From: Alphaproteobacteria bacterium
Lineage (GTDB): Bacteria > Pseudomonadota > Alphaproteobacteria > UBA828
Reading direction: 5' to 3'
NCBI GenBank assembly: GCA_011523425.1
Contig: WTGU01000002.1
Coordinates: forward strand, 1 to 45,128
DNA: 45,128 bases
Shown here: one piece after another, positions 30,664-36,299 of the stretch
How the letters are laid out: every line of letters starts with the position of its first letter
Position numbering within the stretch: the first letter of the stretch is position 1
Translations under genes and position numbers: made by a program
Notes under the pieces: model-generated
The model's database searches: none
The model's input: the letters and a program-made list of their open reading frames with translations, nothing else
Told to the model about the DNA's origin: nothing

Positions 30664-30872
30664 GGTTCGTGCAACACTCCGGGTCGTCTGGCGCCGCTAT
30701 CCGCATCAATCGCGACCGTCGACGGGCGCGTCATTCATTCAGACGGTGAAAGGTTCGTGCAACACTCCGGGTCGTCCGGCGCCGCTATCCGCATCAATCG
30801 CGACCGTCGACGGGCGCGTCATTCTCGCTCGGTGAAAGGTTGGCGCAACACTCCTCGTCGCACGATGCGCAT
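30664..30872 (-). repeat. Tandem repeat of about 88 bp overlapping the primase gene 3' end
   Basis: A 73-bp block at 30664-30736 recurs at 30752-30824 with one mismatch. A third, diverged copy (GGTTGGCGCAACACTCC...) starts at 30838 and continues into the primase gene, where it encodes the C-terminal tail (VMRIVRRGVLRQPF). The arrangement suggests the gene's last segment was duplicated twice downstream of its stop. The 93 bp before it hold no gene. Confidence 0.8.
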
Positions 30873-31805
30873 GACTGTGGACGGGGACAGACCGTATTCC
30901 TCGGCGATGCTACGCATGGACTGTCCGGCCTCGACGGCCTCGACAATTGCCCTATCACGCCTGCGTGTCGCTGCGCGCCGCACCCGCCCGGACTTGAGCC
31001 CCCTGCGGCGTTGGGCCTCAGGGGTATGGTCCATGGAGTGACCACCGGCCCAGGTCCAAGATGAAACCGACCGAGCGATCTTGCTAACCTCTTTTGCCGC
31101 GAGAGGAACTGGAAAGCTCTCGTTCAACTGGCTCGCTATCCTGCTCACCCGGTCTGCCCAAGCGTCAAAGTCCGCGCCCTCGTCCTGCGCATAGGCCCAA
31201 AAGCGAACGTGACCGAAGAGGGCGTTATTGCGCCCGCCCGGGAACACTGTTGCCAGGTCGAGCAAATCATCCGGCGTCCTTATCTTGAAGGTGCGCGACG
31301 CCTCGACAGGGAGCTTATGGGGCGCCTCTTCAGGGGCTGTGTGCGGCGCCTCAACACCCATCGCCTCGAATAGATCAGCGGGGAACGGCGCCGAACCGGG
31401 TGGCGTGAGCCGCAAGGCGCTCGCCAGACGCTCCGCACCGCCTTCATAGAGCCGCAGATTTCCGCGCGCAGACCGGACCTCACCTCGGCACCCGAACGCC
31501 TGCCACTCCTGGTTACGGCGTGGTGTGTCGTCTTGGTAGTACGCATGGGCACCGCCGCGCGGTGACGGGACTGTCACCAGGGGCGGCTTTGCCTCAATGA
31601 GTTTGCCAAAGTCGCCATGGTCGATGTCAAGAGCTGACGTGCCAACGCTGTAGGGGATCAGACCGATCTCCGGCCCGTGCTTGAGGACTGACTCCAGATT
31701 TGGTCGTCGGCGTTGCCAGCCTCGCTGGAACGCCTCCTTGCCACGGCACAAGACGAAATGCGCGCCCCTGTCGTACAGGTATGCGACGGCCTCAAGCCTG
31801 ACCAT
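30819..31805 (-). CDS. Prim-pol / PriCT-1 replication primase with C-terminal helix-turn-helix
   Basis: 328 aa. The N-terminal prim-pol domain shows ALDIDHGD with D60 and D62, then SPRGGAHAYYQ (81-91) and GEVRSARGNLRLY. A PriCT-1 domain (about 190-255) reads GGRNNALFGHVRFWAY ... PLAAKEVSKIARSVSSW. The tail has an HTH (QSMRSIAEEYGLSPSTVMRI, about 294-313). Such proteins prime replication of plasmids, satellites and integrative elements. ATG 31805 has a weak ribosome site, so coupling to the upstream excisionase-like gene (31 bp away) is likely. The stop codon coincides with the boundary of the 88-bp repeats. Confidence 0.82.
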   Translation of the reverse strand: MVRLEAVAYLYDRGAHFVLCRGKEAFQRGWQRRRPNLESVLKHGPEIGLIPYSVGTSALDIDHGDFGKLIEAKPPLVTVPSPRGGAHAYYQDDTPRRNQEWQAFGCRGEVRSARGNLRLYEGGAERLASALRLTPPGSAPFPADLFEAMGVEAPHTAPEEAPHKLPVEASRTFKIRTPDDLLDLATVFPGGRNNALFGHVRFWAYAQDEGADFDAWADRVSRIASQLNESFPVPLAAKEVSKIARSVSSWTWAGGHSMDHTPEAQRRRGLKSGRVRRAATRRRDRAIVEAVEAGQSMRSIAEEYGLSPSTVMRIVRRGVLRQPFTERE

Positions 31806-31836
31806 TGGCCGGCTCGCGCCAGGGGCCGGTTCACGC

Positions 31837-32037
31837 TCAGGCTGCTTGGTCCTTGGGCTGAATCGTTCGGGTCGCCAGCCATCTGTTCAGCTCGCGGCCG
31901 CAGTAGGCCACTCGGCTGCCGAGCTTCACATAGCTTGGCCCCCTGCCCTCGGACCGCCAATGCGACAATGTCGAATAGCTACCGAGCACCTTGAGTGCTG
32001 GATCGTCGGTGAGATAGATCTTGTCGTTGTCGAACAT
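31837..32037 (-). CDS. AlpA/MerR-type helix-turn-helix protein, probable excisionase
   Basis: 66 aa from ATG 32037 with AAGGAG upstream. Contains the compact winged-HTH seen in AlpA/Xis proteins: LGSYSTLSHWRSEGRGPSYV and KLGSRVAYCGRELNRWLATR. In P4-type islands this protein activates or assists integrase-mediated excision. It lies directly upstream of the primase on the same strand; the integrase is 3 kb further right, also on the minus strand. Confidence 0.8.
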   Translation of the reverse strand: MFDNDKIYLTDDPALKVLGSYSTLSHWRSEGRGPSYVKLGSRVAYCGRELNRWLATRTIQPKDQAA

Positions 32038-32089
32038 GTCCCGCTCCTTCCTGGGGTAGCGGGACGATGCATCTGCTTGTGACGGATGC

Positions 32090-32431
32090 CTACGTGCAAT
32101 AAATGCGGCTATTTGTTTCCGAGCTTGGCTCTCGCTCCGAACGCTCCCAGTCGCGGATGATCTTGGAAACTGCATCTGGCTTTGTACAAATCAAATCGCC
32201 GATCTTTCGTTGAGCCTCTCCCACCGTATATCCCATACGCATTATCAATATTTTGTAGAATACATATATAGCATACTTTTCCCTTTTACTTCGGCGTGGA
32301 CGACCTCGCGCTCTCTTTTCCTGTATTCGCCCAGCCATAACCTCCACCGCGTATAGGGCCAATTCGTCCGGAATCTCTTCGCCGCACTCCAGAATACGTT
32401 CGCTCAGCTCCCCCAAGACTGCCTGTGCCAA
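32090..32431 (-). CDS. Hypothetical protein with basic central region
   Basis: 113 aa from a TTG at 32431. The frame stays open about 60 bp further upstream (ARYIIPNIEAARSLDPSAEP) without ATG or GTG, so the true start may be a rare codon or the start has been lost. Contains a basic stretch (KRARGRPRRSKREK) and a helical segment (TVGEAQRKIGDLICTKPDAV) that could be an HTH. Lower G+C than its neighbours. Probably the first gene of the unit with the excisionase and primase. Function unknown. Confidence 0.5.
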   Translation of the reverse strand: MAQAVLGELSERILECGEEIPDELALYAVEVMAGRIQEKRARGRPRRSKREKYAIYVFYKILIMRMGYTVGEAQRKIGDLICTKPDAVSKIIRDWERSEREPSSETNSRIYCT

Positions 32432-32570
32432 CTGAGGCTCGGCGGATGGGTCGAGGCTACGAGCAGCCTCAATATTGGGGATTATATATCTAGCTATCCC
32501 TCACCCGCCGACCCCTATCACGCTAGCAAAATCTGCCGAGCGTTCAAGACGTTGGAGCTTGCAGACGGTC

Positions 32571-33392
32571 TTAGTTCAGGTTCAACCCGTACTCGCGTGA
32601 GCCGAGGGCCGTCTTCCAGTAGCTCTCCCTCTCCAGGACCTCCCCGTGATCCACGTGGCTCCCGAAGGTCTCCAGAACGACGAACTTGTAGTCTCGGCCC
32701 TCGCGGAGCCGCAGGCCCTCGTTCCCGCCGTGCCGGTCCCTGACGTAGCTGCTGAGCCTCTGGTAGAGTCCGTCTTCTCCCGAGGCGGAGCCTACGTACT
32801 GCTTCCCGTCCTGCGTATCCACGAGAAGGTAGACCCCGCTGACGGCGCGGAGGGCCTCGCGCCACGTGGCCGGAATCTCCTCGGCCTCAGAGACGAGGAT
32901 CGTGAACCTCGTGAAGCCGGGGAACGGCTGAACGTTCCACCCCTCCTCGTGTATCTCTAGTACCCTAATGGTCACGTTCGACAGTCTCCGATGCCACACC
33001 CTCCCGGAGGGCCAGTCTACCACCATACGCCCGCAGTAATCTCGAAGCAAGTCGTGGGGGCGTAACTCGTAGTAGTGCCTCTTAGTTCTTTTGATTAGGG
33101 GATCGACCACTTCACTCGGACAGTCTCTCCGACCTGTTACCTCCCATACTCCAGCGAATACTCCCCTCTTCGGTGCTGGAGCGAGGAGGGACACGATGTA
33201 GTCGCTTTCTCCGATCGGTCTGGTGCTGTTGTAGAGGGACTGGTGGAGCTCGAACTTCTCCCTACCCTCGTGCCAGAGGTCCCACGAGGTTCGACCCGTC
33301 TCCGCGTCCGTCTCCTGGTGCCGTAGGACCTTCACCTTCTCAACGTCGAGACCGGCCGCCTCGGCCAGCTCGTTGATGACGAGTGTCCGCAT
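32571..33392 (-). CDS. GIY-YIG nuclease-domain protein
   Basis: 273 aa from ATG 33392 (GGGAGG upstream). The C-terminal 90 residues form a GIY-YIG domain: GVYLLVD (186), YVGSA (199), R212 in LYQRLSSYV, catalytic-type E255 in ERESYWK, and terminal N271 in YGLNLN. The N-terminal 180 residues (TSWDLWHEGREKFELHQSLY, APAPKRGVFAGVWEVTGR) are of unknown fold and may recognise DNA or a modified base. Similar two-part proteins occur in defence islands as restriction-like nucleases. No partner methylase is adjacent; the Type ISP-like enzyme is 25 kb away. Activity is inferred. Confidence 0.75.
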   Translation of the reverse strand: MRTLVINELAEAAGLDVEKVKVLRHQETDAETGRTSWDLWHEGREKFELHQSLYNSTRPIGESDYIVSLLAPAPKRGVFAGVWEVTGRRDCPSEVVDPLIKRTKRHYYELRPHDLLRDYCGRMVVDWPSGRVWHRRLSNVTIRVLEIHEEGWNVQPFPGFTRFTILVSEAEEIPATWREALRAVSGVYLLVDTQDGKQYVGSASGEDGLYQRLSSYVRDRHGGNEGLRLREGRDYKFVVLETFGSHVDHGEVLERESYWKTALGSREYGLNLN

Positions 33393-33423
33393 GACCGCCT
33401 CCCACCCTGGTGTCGGGCCGGTT

Positions 33424-33549
33424 GCACACAGACACGCGGATGGCGTGCTCTCCCGCCTATTCGCCGGGCGCGGGTAGCTAACCCGAGCCGGGTCTCGGCT
33501 GTTGTATTCGACGGGCGACCCGACGTGCGGGCGCCATCCGCCTGTGTGC
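33424..33549. other. Multi-hairpin structured element
   Basis: Outer stem: GCACACAG (33424-33431) and GCGGATGGCG (33436-33445) pair with CGCCATCCGC (33532-33541) and CTGTGTGC (33542-33549), 18 bp with a 4-nt bulge. Inside are three small hairpins: CGGGT/ACCCG (33471-33485), AGCCG/CGGCT (33486-33500) and CGGG/CCCG (33512-33522). It begins 32 bp upstream of the GIY-YIG start. It could be a structured RNA, a recombination site or an origin. The rest of 33393-33695 shows no gene. Confidence 0.5.
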
Positions 33550-33695
33550 GATTCAGGAGGCTACAGGATTCGGGAGAGCGCAGGAAGGACGAGATTCTGG
33601 ACCGGCAAGAATGTTGCTGGTAGGCTGCTAACGAAGCGCGGCCGAGGTGCACCACCACCTCGGCCGCAGGTCATTGCTTCCAACCGGAAAGAAGG

Positions 33696-33890
33696 ATGAC
33701 AACAACATCTGGTAGTATAGCGCCCGTTCGTCTCGCAGAAAACCTAGATTTAGGCTACGTCGAGAAGCTGCGAAGAACGGCACGCATCCTTTACACGATC
33801 CCGGACCGTGACTGGCGCGACCGGCTAAAGGCTCTCGCCAGCGAGATCGAGGGGCACATACCTGAGCGCATCTCGCTGGCTAGCGGCTGA
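33696..33890 (+). CDS. Hypothetical 64-aa protein, possibly truncated by the IS element
   Basis: ATG 33696 follows GGAAAG. The product is helical and charged (YVEKLRRTARILYTIPDRDW, ALASEIEGHIPER). Its stop lies inside the candidate terminal repeat of the IS1595-type element, so the original C-terminus may have been replaced. Not recognised. Confidence 0.4.
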   Translation: MTTTSGSIAPVRLAENLDLGYVEKLRRTARILYTIPDRDWRDRLKALASEIEGHIPERISLASG

Positions 33891-34884
33891 GGCGCCGTCA
33901 GGCGTAAGCCGGCTCTCCACCCACCAGCTCCGCCCGCGTCAGCCGCCGCCCGACCATCCCGCGCACGATCTCGCCCATCGCGTCGACCGTGTCTAACGGC
34001 CGCAGGTTGTGCCGCCCAGAGAACTCGCTGACGTAGCGGTCGCTGTGCTTCTCGCTGAAGTGGTGGAAGGTGCCCTGGTAGGCCCGCTTCAGCTGCGCCC
34101 AGAAACTCTCGATGCCGTTGGTGTGGACGGGGCCGCGCACGTACTCCTCCGCCGAGTGGTCGACCGCCTCGTGGGCGTAGGGGGAGTTGTCGTAGATTCT
34201 GCTCCCGTCGGTGTAGATCGTCGCGTCGGGGCGGACGCGGACCTCCATGAACCGGCGCAGATCGTGGCGGGTCGCCGCCCTCACGACGCGGGCCGACACT
34301 TTCTTCGTCTCGCGATCCTTGGCGCCGGCAACGACGGTCTTGCCGGACGTCCCGCCCTCGCCGAGCGTCTTCTTCGCTTCCGCGCGCTTGCTCTTGGGCA
34401 TGTTCTTCCGCTTGCCGCCCAGGAAGGTCTCGTCGACCTCCACCGGGCCGTCGAACAGCCGGCCGGGGTTGGAGAACGCCTCGCGGAGCCGGTGGCCGAG
34501 GAACCACGCGCTCTTCTGCGTGATGCCGAGGTCGCGGTGCAGCTTCATGCTGCTGACGCCCTTCAGGCTCGTCGCCCAGAGGTAGACGGCGAAGGCCCAC
34601 TTGCGAAGCGGAATCTTCGACTCCTCCATCACCGTGCCTGTGCGGACGGAGAAGTGGCGCCTGCAAGAGCGGCAGCGCCAGGGCATGGGCTTCTCCGAGG
34701 CGATCGCCGAGACGGCCGTGGACGAGCAGTGGGGGCAGGTCGGGCCGTGGGGCCAGCGCCGGGCCTCGAACCACGCCTTGGCGGCGGCCTCGTCCGGGAA
34801 CATCTCCGCCAGCTCCATGAGGCTGATGCCCTCGCGGTCGTGGCGGCCGGGTGCGCTGTGTGCCATGGTGCCTCTCCCTCTAGC
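33879..34884 (-). mobile_element. IS1595-family insertion sequence
   Basis: About 1.0 kb around a complete transposase gene. Candidate terminal inverted repeats: GCTAGCGGCTGAGGCGCC at 33879-33896 and, read on the minus strand, GCTAGAGGGAGAGGCACC at 34867-34884 (14 of 18 match). No clear target duplication was found, so the exact ends are uncertain and may lie further out. Confidence 0.6.
33898..34866 (-). CDS. IS1595-family (ISXO2-like) transposase
   Basis: 322 aa, normal length. An N-terminal zinc ribbon (C44, C47, C65, C68 in CPHCSS ... CRSCRRHF) is followed by the ISXO2-like DDE core: D145 (VEVDETFLGG), D220 (IYTDGSRIYDN), N250 and E253 (HTNGIESFW) with K260. All key residues are present and the frame is intact, so it may be active. 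Runs ATG 34866 to TGA 33898. Confidence 0.93.
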   Translation of the reverse strand: MAHSAPGRHDREGISLMELAEMFPDEAAAKAWFEARRWPHGPTCPHCSSTAVSAIASEKPMPWRCRSCRRHFSVRTGTVMEESKIPLRKWAFAVYLWATSLKGVSSMKLHRDLGITQKSAWFLGHRLREAFSNPGRLFDGPVEVDETFLGGKRKNMPKSKRAEAKKTLGEGGTSGKTVVAGAKDRETKKVSARVVRAATRHDLRRFMEVRVRPDATIYTDGSRIYDNSPYAHEAVDHSAEEYVRGPVHTNGIESFWAQLKRAYQGTFHHFSEKHSDRYVSEFSGRHNLRPLDTVDAMGEIVRGMVGRRLTRAELVGGEPAYA

Positions 34885-35110
34885 TTAGGGTCTCAATACT
34901 GGCGGGAGAGGAGCGGGTAGTCAAGTATATAATCCCCTCAATATTTGACAGGAGATGGAGCGCCCTCTCGTCAGGTCTCATTCCCTCATGTGCCTCGACG
35001 CGTTCGATCACGGCCGGAGAAACGCCCAGTAGTGCTCTGTTGCGAATTTCCGCTTCCAGATTGGGCAGCAGTTTCAGCGCGTCAGCGCTCTGAACGAGAC
35101 TCTCAACCAT
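34880..35110 (-). CDS. Hypothetical 76-aa protein coupled to the integrase
   Basis: ATG 35110 overlaps the integrase stop by 8 bp, with GGAGCG just upstream, so it is translated with the integrase. Helical, acidic (SLVQSADALKLLPNLEAEIR, RVEAHEGMRPDERALHLLS). The last residues (SPASIETLS) run into the candidate right IS repeat, so the C-terminus may be secondary. No known family. Confidence 0.5.
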   Translation of the reverse strand: MVESLVQSADALKLLPNLEAEIRNRALLGVSPAVIERVEAHEGMRPDERALHLLSNIEGIIYLTTRSSPASIETLS

Positions 35111-36299
35111 TGCGGCGCTCCATCGGCACAATGTCGCCGGCCCTGCCGGCCATCATGGCGGCCATTTCGGCGCCCACCCGTTCCCGAGCATCGCGCACCG
35201 GATTGCCAACGGCCCGGACGTATCGATCGGCCATCGCCGTCGTCTTGTGGCCCAAGAGGTCGCGGAGAACGTGAGTACCGACGCCCGTCGCCGCCGCGCG
35301 CGTCATCACGGTGCGGCGAAGGTCATGCAGGCGGACATCCTTGAGGCCCGCGTCGCGCGTCACGCGCTTGAAGACGTTGCGCACGCCGCCATAGCTGATT
35401 GGGCGGTCCCGCCCGGTTGTGAAGGCCCAGCGATTGAGGCGGGGCAGCGCCACCAATGCCTCGGTCGCAGGAGTCGGCAGGTCATGCACGCGCCGGCCGG
35501 TTTTCGTCGCCGGCAAGATCAGGCGTCCGGTTTCGAATTCGACGTCTTCCCACTGGATCGCTAGGACCTCACCGATGCGAAGCCCGGTTACGGCCGCGAA
35601 GCGGATCGCCGCGACGGCGGCCGGGCTACGGGCTTCGGCCGCGTCCAACGCTATAGCCAGCGTCGCCAGTTCGGATGGCGCAAGCACGCGGTCGCGTGGT
35701 TCCTCGCGGGCCCGCTCTATGCCGCGCACGGGGTTGGAGTGCTGCGGTCGCCAGCCCCATCGCTCAAACTGTGTGAAGAGCCGTGACGCAAAACCGAGCG
35801 TTCGGTTGCGCTGCACTGGGGCCCGCGGAGCGACAGCGAGCTCGATGTCTTCGCGCGTGACCTCGGCAATGCGGAGTCGTCCGATGACAGGGCGGAGCGA
35901 GCGTTCGGCTTGCGCACGATACTCTGCCACGGTGCTGGTAGCCATGCGGCCAATACGGACTCGCTCGGGGGCGAATTCGCCAAAGAACCTATCCAGGCCC
36001 TCGGCGACGGTCGGCGCTCGCGCAGCCTCTTCGCGCCGGCGGAGCGGGTCAGCCTCGCCGGCTCGAATGGCAGCAAGCTCGGCGCCCGCACGTTCGCGCA
36101 CCGCCTTGAGACTGATTTCAGAGCACCTGGCGAGCGTTGCCCGACGGTATCGACGTCTTCCAAGGTGGTAGTTCAAAATGTAGGACTTCGCGCCGGCCGG
36201 TGTGACGCGAACGCCGAGTCCCTTCACGGTTTCGTCCCACAAGATGACCGTCTTCGGACCCGGCTTCGCGTCCCGGATGCGCCGCTCGGTCAGCCCCAT
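35103..36299 (-). CDS. P4-type tyrosine integrase of the island
   Basis: 398 aa. The N-terminal arm-binding domain (DUF4102-like: LTERRIRDAKPGPKTVILWD ... KGLGVRVTPAGAKSYIL) is followed by a core-binding region (about 97-200) and the catalytic domain with R241 (TGLRIGEV), K266, H325 and R328 (HDLRRT), H351 (LLGHKT) and nucleophile Y360 (ADRYVRAV). All catalytic residues are present. Such integrases recombine at the 3' ends of tRNA genes; here the tRNA-Leu 3' repeat lies 161 bp upstream of its start. TGTCAGTA repeats in its promoter region suggest self-regulation. Confidence 0.95.
   Translation of the reverse strand: MGLTERRIRDAKPGPKTVILWDETVKGLGVRVTPAGAKSYILNYHLGRRRYRRATLARCSEISLKAVRERAGAELAAIRAGEADPLRRREEAARAPTVAEGLDRFFGEFAPERVRIGRMATSTVAEYRAQAERSLRPVIGRLRIAEVTREDIELAVAPRAPVQRNRTLGFASRLFTQFERWGWRPQHSNPVRGIERAREEPRDRVLAPSELATLAIALDAAEARSPAAVAAIRFAAVTGLRIGEVLAIQWEDVEFETGRLILPATKTGRRVHDLPTPATEALVALPRLNRWAFTTGRDRPISYGGVRNVFKRVTRDAGLKDVRLHDLRRTVMTRAAATGVGTHVLRDLLGHKTTAMADRYVRAVGNPVRDARERVGAEMAAMMAGRAGDIVPMERRNG

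Follow-up and report, generated by a model that had tools for sequence, protein, structure and literature searches.

Locus and Fold of the Structured Element

The window, namely the whole stretch of 45,128 nucleotides analyzed here, carries a GIY-YIG protein gene on the minus strand, and the start codon of this gene (33392) is located 32 nt downstream of a structured element of 126 nt (33424–33549). The element resides in an otherwise empty gap of approximately 300 bp just upstream of the gene, as the original prediction had described. Its outer stem, termed P1 hereafter, was also found as predicted, comprising 18 bp (8 + 10) with one 4-nt bulge and pairing 33424–33445 with 33532–33549. The fold energy was −71.8 kcal/mol for the plus strand (z = −4.63) and −67.9 kcal/mol for the minus strand (z = −4.13), and none of 200 dinucleotide shuffles folded as well, so that the element passed the comparison with shuffled sequences proposed for it. 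The interior had been read as three perfect hairpins; it is structured indeed, but the comparative data (see below) give a leader hairpin and one long arm with a conserved internal loop (P2-P2b-P3; 33452–33515) instead. The same data also support a helix, GUCGGGUC:GGCCCGAC, which forms a pseudoknot across the outer stem and involves 33412–33419, beyond the element as first delimited. The element is the start (5′ leader) of a predicted minus-strand RNA ahead of the downstream gene, with the features below.

33559–33565, minus strand: weak −10-like TGTAGCC upstream of the leader, with no good −35 (6/12 for the window copy)
33532–33549, minus strand: P1 5′ arm, the hypervariable leader arm pairing with the antisense arm (own versus swapped pairing in 58 copies); predicted 5′ end of the RNA
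33519–33531, minus strand: leader hairpin CCCG:CGGG, which competes with the acceptor-like helix (paired in 98.7% of cells, with few changes)
33517–33524, minus strand: 5′ strand of the acceptor-like helix, GUCGGGUC, pairing with 33412–33419 in ~98% of cells
33452–33515, minus strand: conserved core arm with P2, the internal loop GAAUACAACA/GAAUA, P2b, and P3 with a UAGCU loop (compensatory changes)
33430–33457, minus strand: putative antisense segment (P2 end, linker, and inner P1 3′ arm), complementary to the downstream ribosome-binding site and start
33424–33445, minus strand: P1 3′ arm including the 4-nt bulge (fold and swapped-partner pairing)
33412–33419, minus strand: 3′ strand of the acceptor-like helix, GGCCCGAC, alternatively a strand of a downstream hairpin (family alignment)
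33408–33411, minus strand: ACCA, the RCC(A) motif past the acceptor-like helix (ACC or GCC in 77 of 103 aligned rows)
33398–33403, minus strand: Shine-Dalgarno sequence GGGAGG of the downstream gene, the putative antisense target (sequence and predicted duplex)
32571–33392, minus strand: GIY-YIG protein gene, candidate UzuA-like anti-phage defence gene (Pfam, PADLOC)

The GIY-YIG gene lies within an apparent integrated island (30819–36299), which includes genes for a PriCT primase (30819–31805), an HTH_17 protein (31837–32175), and a phage-type integrase (35103–36299). An IS1595 transposase is encoded in the island region as well (33898–34866). Between the leader and a small ORF (33696–33890), there is a near-perfect, terminator-like palindrome, GCGGCCGAGGTG/CACCTCGGCCGC (33638–33667).

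Relatives and Their Distribution

We identified approximately 100 relatives of the element in Alpha- and Gammaproteobacteria, Acidobacteriota, Binatota, Chloroflexi, and others. A second copy is present in the same genome (G000:C148). Of the seven other genomes of the genus, blastn detected copies in five, and a covariance model built from nine copies did so in six. This model found no copy in other genera of the same family, and matched 23 of 385 genomes of the class, representing 15 genera. A 28-nt core pattern retrieved at least 80 stretches from GTDB contigs, and the matches listed are labeled as Alpha-, Gamma-, and Deltaproteobacteria, Acidobacteria, Binatota, Chloroflexi, Gemmatimonadetes, and Rhodothermales. 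The same pattern had no match in viral contigs, and a blastn search of plasmids and phages with the element returned chance matches only. The relatives share one order of parts on the minus strand, that is, a promoter, a variable arm, the conserved core, a second arm, GGCCCGRC-RCC, a Shine-Dalgarno sequence, and a start codon.

Many family members are apparently from marine sponges, a habitat inferred from the record names: the prefixes RHO, IRC, COS, CAR, and APA, found in many copies, fit the host sponges of PMC8163846, and one record (L100) names a sponge outright. In Binatota and Acidobacteria, several copies cluster in separate derived groups, which argues against simple binning contamination in these cases. 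Other copies, such as the gammaproteobacterial L084 and L138, are close to alphaproteobacterial ones, and for such copies transfer and misbinning are indistinguishable. Two individual loci are worth describing. In a sponge gammaproteobacterium, two convergent copies are placed ~55 nt apart (L100:3597–3953). In L018/L049 (G002:C10), a repeat (GAACAGGTAACC twice) breaks the P1 5′ arm, and this locus is regarded as a natural variant without the sequestering stem in which the downstream gene is retained.

Comparative Evidence for an RNA of the Minus Strand

Among 99 distinct sequences, 92.6% of the cells at paired positions were paired, compared with 71.5% in shuffles, and double compensatory changes were observed in 36 of the 43 pairs, the kind of change in homologues that the original prediction had proposed to look for. 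The pairing collapsed in slid controls. The alignment was fitted to the model and the counts thus lean toward the structure, but the effect size and the test on P1 described below do not depend on the model-fitted alignment alone. In the core, P2 and P2b were paired in 98.1% and 99.3% of cells, respectively, with compensatory changes present. On the transcribed strand, G.U cells numbered 432 as against 69 A.C cells, and the structure is therefore that of the RNA of the transcribed (minus) strand.

The arms of P1 are hypervariable. In 58 copies, the pairing of an arm with its own partner amounted to −28.3 kcal/mol versus −12.1 kcal/mol with swapped partners, and the own partner was the best one in 51 of the 58. 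In much of the family, a sigma-70-like promoter (−35/−10) is found at a fixed distance from P1 and ends at the outer stem, albeit the promoter of the window copy is poor (6/12). Of the roles offered for the element at the outset, that of a regulatory RNA is supported by the compensatory changes, the strand asymmetry of the wobble pairs, and this family promoter.

The acceptor-like helix, GUCGGGUC:RRCCCGRC in the family, was paired in ~98% of cells, and the changes are almost only among U.G, U-A, and C-G. The 5′ strand of this helix was within the pattern by which L061–L140 were retrieved, and its conservation there is by construction; in these copies, independent evidence thus comes from the 3′ strand only. 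After the helix, 77 of the 103 rows have ACC or GCC. In RNase P substrates, RCCA pairs through its RCC with the RNA of the enzyme (PMC12710915), and the acceptor-like helix with its ACC/GCC tail resembles such a substrate. GUCGGG and CCCGRC take part in mutually exclusive pairings.

Genes Downstream of the Leader

A start codon preceded by a Shine-Dalgarno sequence lies at a near-constant distance of 20–40 nt 3′ of the leader (positional test, n = 64). The downstream proteins mostly appear to be exported: by a simple hydropathy rule, applied without a signal-peptide predictor, a hydrophobic N-terminus was found in 57 of 73 (13% of other ORFs of the same loci), and a lipobox in 29 of 73 (3% of other ORFs). 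The families include TbpB-like barrels, glycosyltransferase 25, CsgG, porins, and a thermolysin-type peptidase.

The window protein matched Pfam GIY-YIG (2.7e-06) and, over its full length, the PADLOC model of UzuA (7e-70), by which sequence matches the gene is a candidate UzuA-like anti-phage defence gene. Two further, different GIY-YIG genes carry the leader (L048 and L110) and match PDC-S57 and PD-T4-3, so that the three leader-bearing GIY-YIG genes fall under three different defence models (UzuA, PDC-S57, and PD-T4-3). Because L048 and L110 carry the leader, its association with GIY-YIG defence-type genes is not zero. No model match was found near two homologues of the window protein in other genera.

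Complementarity to the Ribosome-Binding Site

The linker and the inner P1 arm together complement the ribosome-binding site (−25 to 0) of the gene that they precede, the own pairing amounting to −15.3 versus −13.1 when partners were swapped (z = −6.2, p < 2e-4; GC-matched Wilcoxon p = 0.001). The same test was negative for a control region at +15 to +40, and the 5′ leader, used as a control against the ribosome-binding site, showed a slight drift (p = 0.04; GC-matched, 0.11). Comparison of the 100 nt downstream with either the entire 3′ arm or the leader arm gave no clear signal; only the linker and inner arm against the ribosome-binding site did. The complementarity emerges as a statistical shift over the family. 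Many individual copies have little or none of it, and it is far weaker than the pairing within P1 (−12 to −15 versus −28 kcal/mol). For the window copy, 33430–33457 is predicted to form a duplex with 33388–33415 at −26.9 kcal/mol.

Removal of the leader arm in silico lowered the accessibility of the ribosome-binding site from 0.425 to 0.348 (p = 3e-6), a modest effect obtained by nested folding, which disregards the pseudoknot. This drop exceeds that in leader-gene chimeras (p = 0.01).

Proposed Mechanism and Alternatives

With moderate confidence, we regard a C4-like leader that closes its own ribosome-binding site once the P1 5′ arm is removed as the best explanation. The minus-strand leader RNA would fold into the conserved core, the long hypervariable P1, and the crossing acceptor-like helix, and its 3′ segment (linker and inner P1 3′ arm) would be an antisense of the C4 type, directed against the ribosome-binding site of the gene that follows. 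As long as the RNA is full-length, the P1 5′ arm would hold the antisense and leave the ribosome-binding site open, the outer stem serving as a safety catch. We infer that RNase P is the most likely agent for the removal of this arm, acting, as on phage C4, at the GUCGGG...RCCCGRC-RCC(A) helix with a predicted cut just 5′ of base 33524. Alternatively, a disturbance of the P1 pairing may free the antisense. The freed antisense would then close the ribosome-binding site on the mRNA that carries it, and perhaps those of sister mRNAs in trans. The RNA probably switches the translation of the mostly exported-protein genes that it precedes.

The leader may instead be a riboswitch or a protein-binding leader, in which the invariant core binds a ligand or a protein, translation is controlled as P1, the acceptor-like helix, and the downstream hairpin replace one another, and the complementarity to the ribosome-binding site is no more than a part of the expression platform. 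The highly conserved core loops, the mutually exclusive pairings of GUCGGG and CCCGRC, the position just 5′ of start codons, and downstream genes that make up a functional class agree with such a leader. Nevertheless, what the downstream genes have in common is export, not a pathway or a metabolite, the core and layout are related to those of sRNA-Xcc1, which itself bears antisense complementarity, and no Rfam riboswitch model matched; we thus consider this reading rather unlikely. That the RNA is mainly a trans-acting small RNA, placed ahead of genes for co-transcription only, appears improbable. Genomes with several copies bearing different variable arms would suit it, and sRNA-Xcc1 is so described in the title of a paper cited in PMC12444791, but the start codons lie at a near-constant distance and the complementarity prefers the own gene over swapped genes.

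The idea that the element acts as folded DNA, be it a mobile-element end, an integron attC site, or a target of the GIY-YIG nuclease, is largely refuted, and we give it hardly any probability. The element is near-palindromic, multicopy, and spread across distant phyla, and the integrase and the IS1595 transposase are close by in the window. However, wobble pairs are confined to the transcribed strand, the promoter and the start-codon distance are fixed, and the P1 arms vary between copies with no conserved terminal repeat. An arm fits its own partner (the best one in 51/58) and seldom the partner arm of a different copy, on which we rejected a MITE or other terminal-inverted-repeat element; an attC site was rejected as the RYYYAAC and GTTRRRY ends occurred in 0 of 99 sequences, and with the same count the proposed origin or transfer site gained no support. 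The suggestion of a GIY-YIG target fared no better, as most relatives precede unrelated genes and the two UzuA homologues lack the element nearby.

Returning to the C4-like leader, we tentatively propose an undescribed RNA family, found across several phyla with sponge hosts, in which a self-sequestered antisense is guarded by a hypervariable arm until RNase P removes the latter, and which may control exported lipoproteins, outer-membrane proteins, and some GIY-YIG defence genes. Such a family would provide a handle on how surface proteins are coordinated in these, apparently often sponge-associated, communities.

Comparison With sRNA-Xcc1 and C4 RNAs

At the gathering threshold, Rfam detected only one tRNA in the window. 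The nearest model is sRNA-Xcc1 (RF02221), and the scores stayed below its gathering threshold of 53 bits (28.6 for the window copy, 29.1 for the second copy, and 40.1 for the best, L050). Conversely, the model of the new family found none of the sRNA-Xcc1 loci (best E, 0.11). The two RNAs have in common the core internal loop AAUACAA/GAAUA between closing strands, of which the GAAUA loops are almost invariant in the new family, a closing helix G[U/G]C[G/C]GG...CCCG[A/G]C with a CC motif behind it, and a variable arm whose sequence complements the ribosome-binding site of the ORF downstream. On the other hand, sRNA-Xcc1 is ~88 nt long and has no long leader stem, in contrast to the new RNA with its P1: the pairing of the leader arm was −15.0 for own versus −14.1 for swapped partners in sRNA-Xcc1 (z = −1.9), compared with −28.3 versus −12.1 in the new RNA. 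The genes downstream of the new RNA mostly encode exported proteins, unlike those of sRNA-Xcc1.

In the sRNA-Xcc1 loci themselves (L142–L170), the variable arm complemented the ribosome-binding site of the very ORF that follows it (swapped-partner z = −8.0, GC-matched p = 5e-7), as in the mechanism that PMC5320573 describes for C4, and this ORF is often a phage antirepressor-like gene. In the literature, sRNA-Xcc1 is called a trans-acting small RNA with unsettled targets. It may be recast as an antisense RNA directed at the gene that it precedes, a reading open to direct test.

C4-type antisense RNAs are known mainly as phage immunity switches. The Rfam C4 model (RF01695) had no match in the window, nor in the same genome or genus at E ≤ 0.01. 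As described in the sections of PMC5320573 on the C4 of phages P1/P7, this RNA is likewise a structured RNA upstream of the gene it represses and antisense to a ribosome-binding site, its a′ and b′ loops binding at and upstream of that site. The corresponding complementarity was found in the new RNA (z and GC-matched p as above), weak in many single copies. The same sections describe processing by RNase P at the 5′ end of the tRNA-like closing stem, its proposed site, and the acceptor-like helix and RCC tail of the new RNA are compatible with this anatomy. The Group 1 C4-like small RNAs of Acinetobacter baumannii likewise have many chromosomal copies, one fold, a variable targeting segment, and apparent 5′ processing; however, they match the Rfam C4 motif, unlike the new RNA, and in the part of PMC5320573 devoted to them, their targets are given as unknown and a sequestering leader arm is not described.

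Altogether, the new RNA is an unlisted structured leader that resembles both C4 and sRNA-Xcc1 in anatomy and complementarity, and belongs by the models to neither family. C4 controls a phage antirepressor, whereas the new RNA precedes chromosomal genes of exported proteins, and would represent a C4-related architecture that is widespread as a leader of such genes in uncultured bacteria of several phyla. What is new, and distinguishes it from C4, is the long hypervariable leader arm predicted to sequester the antisense.
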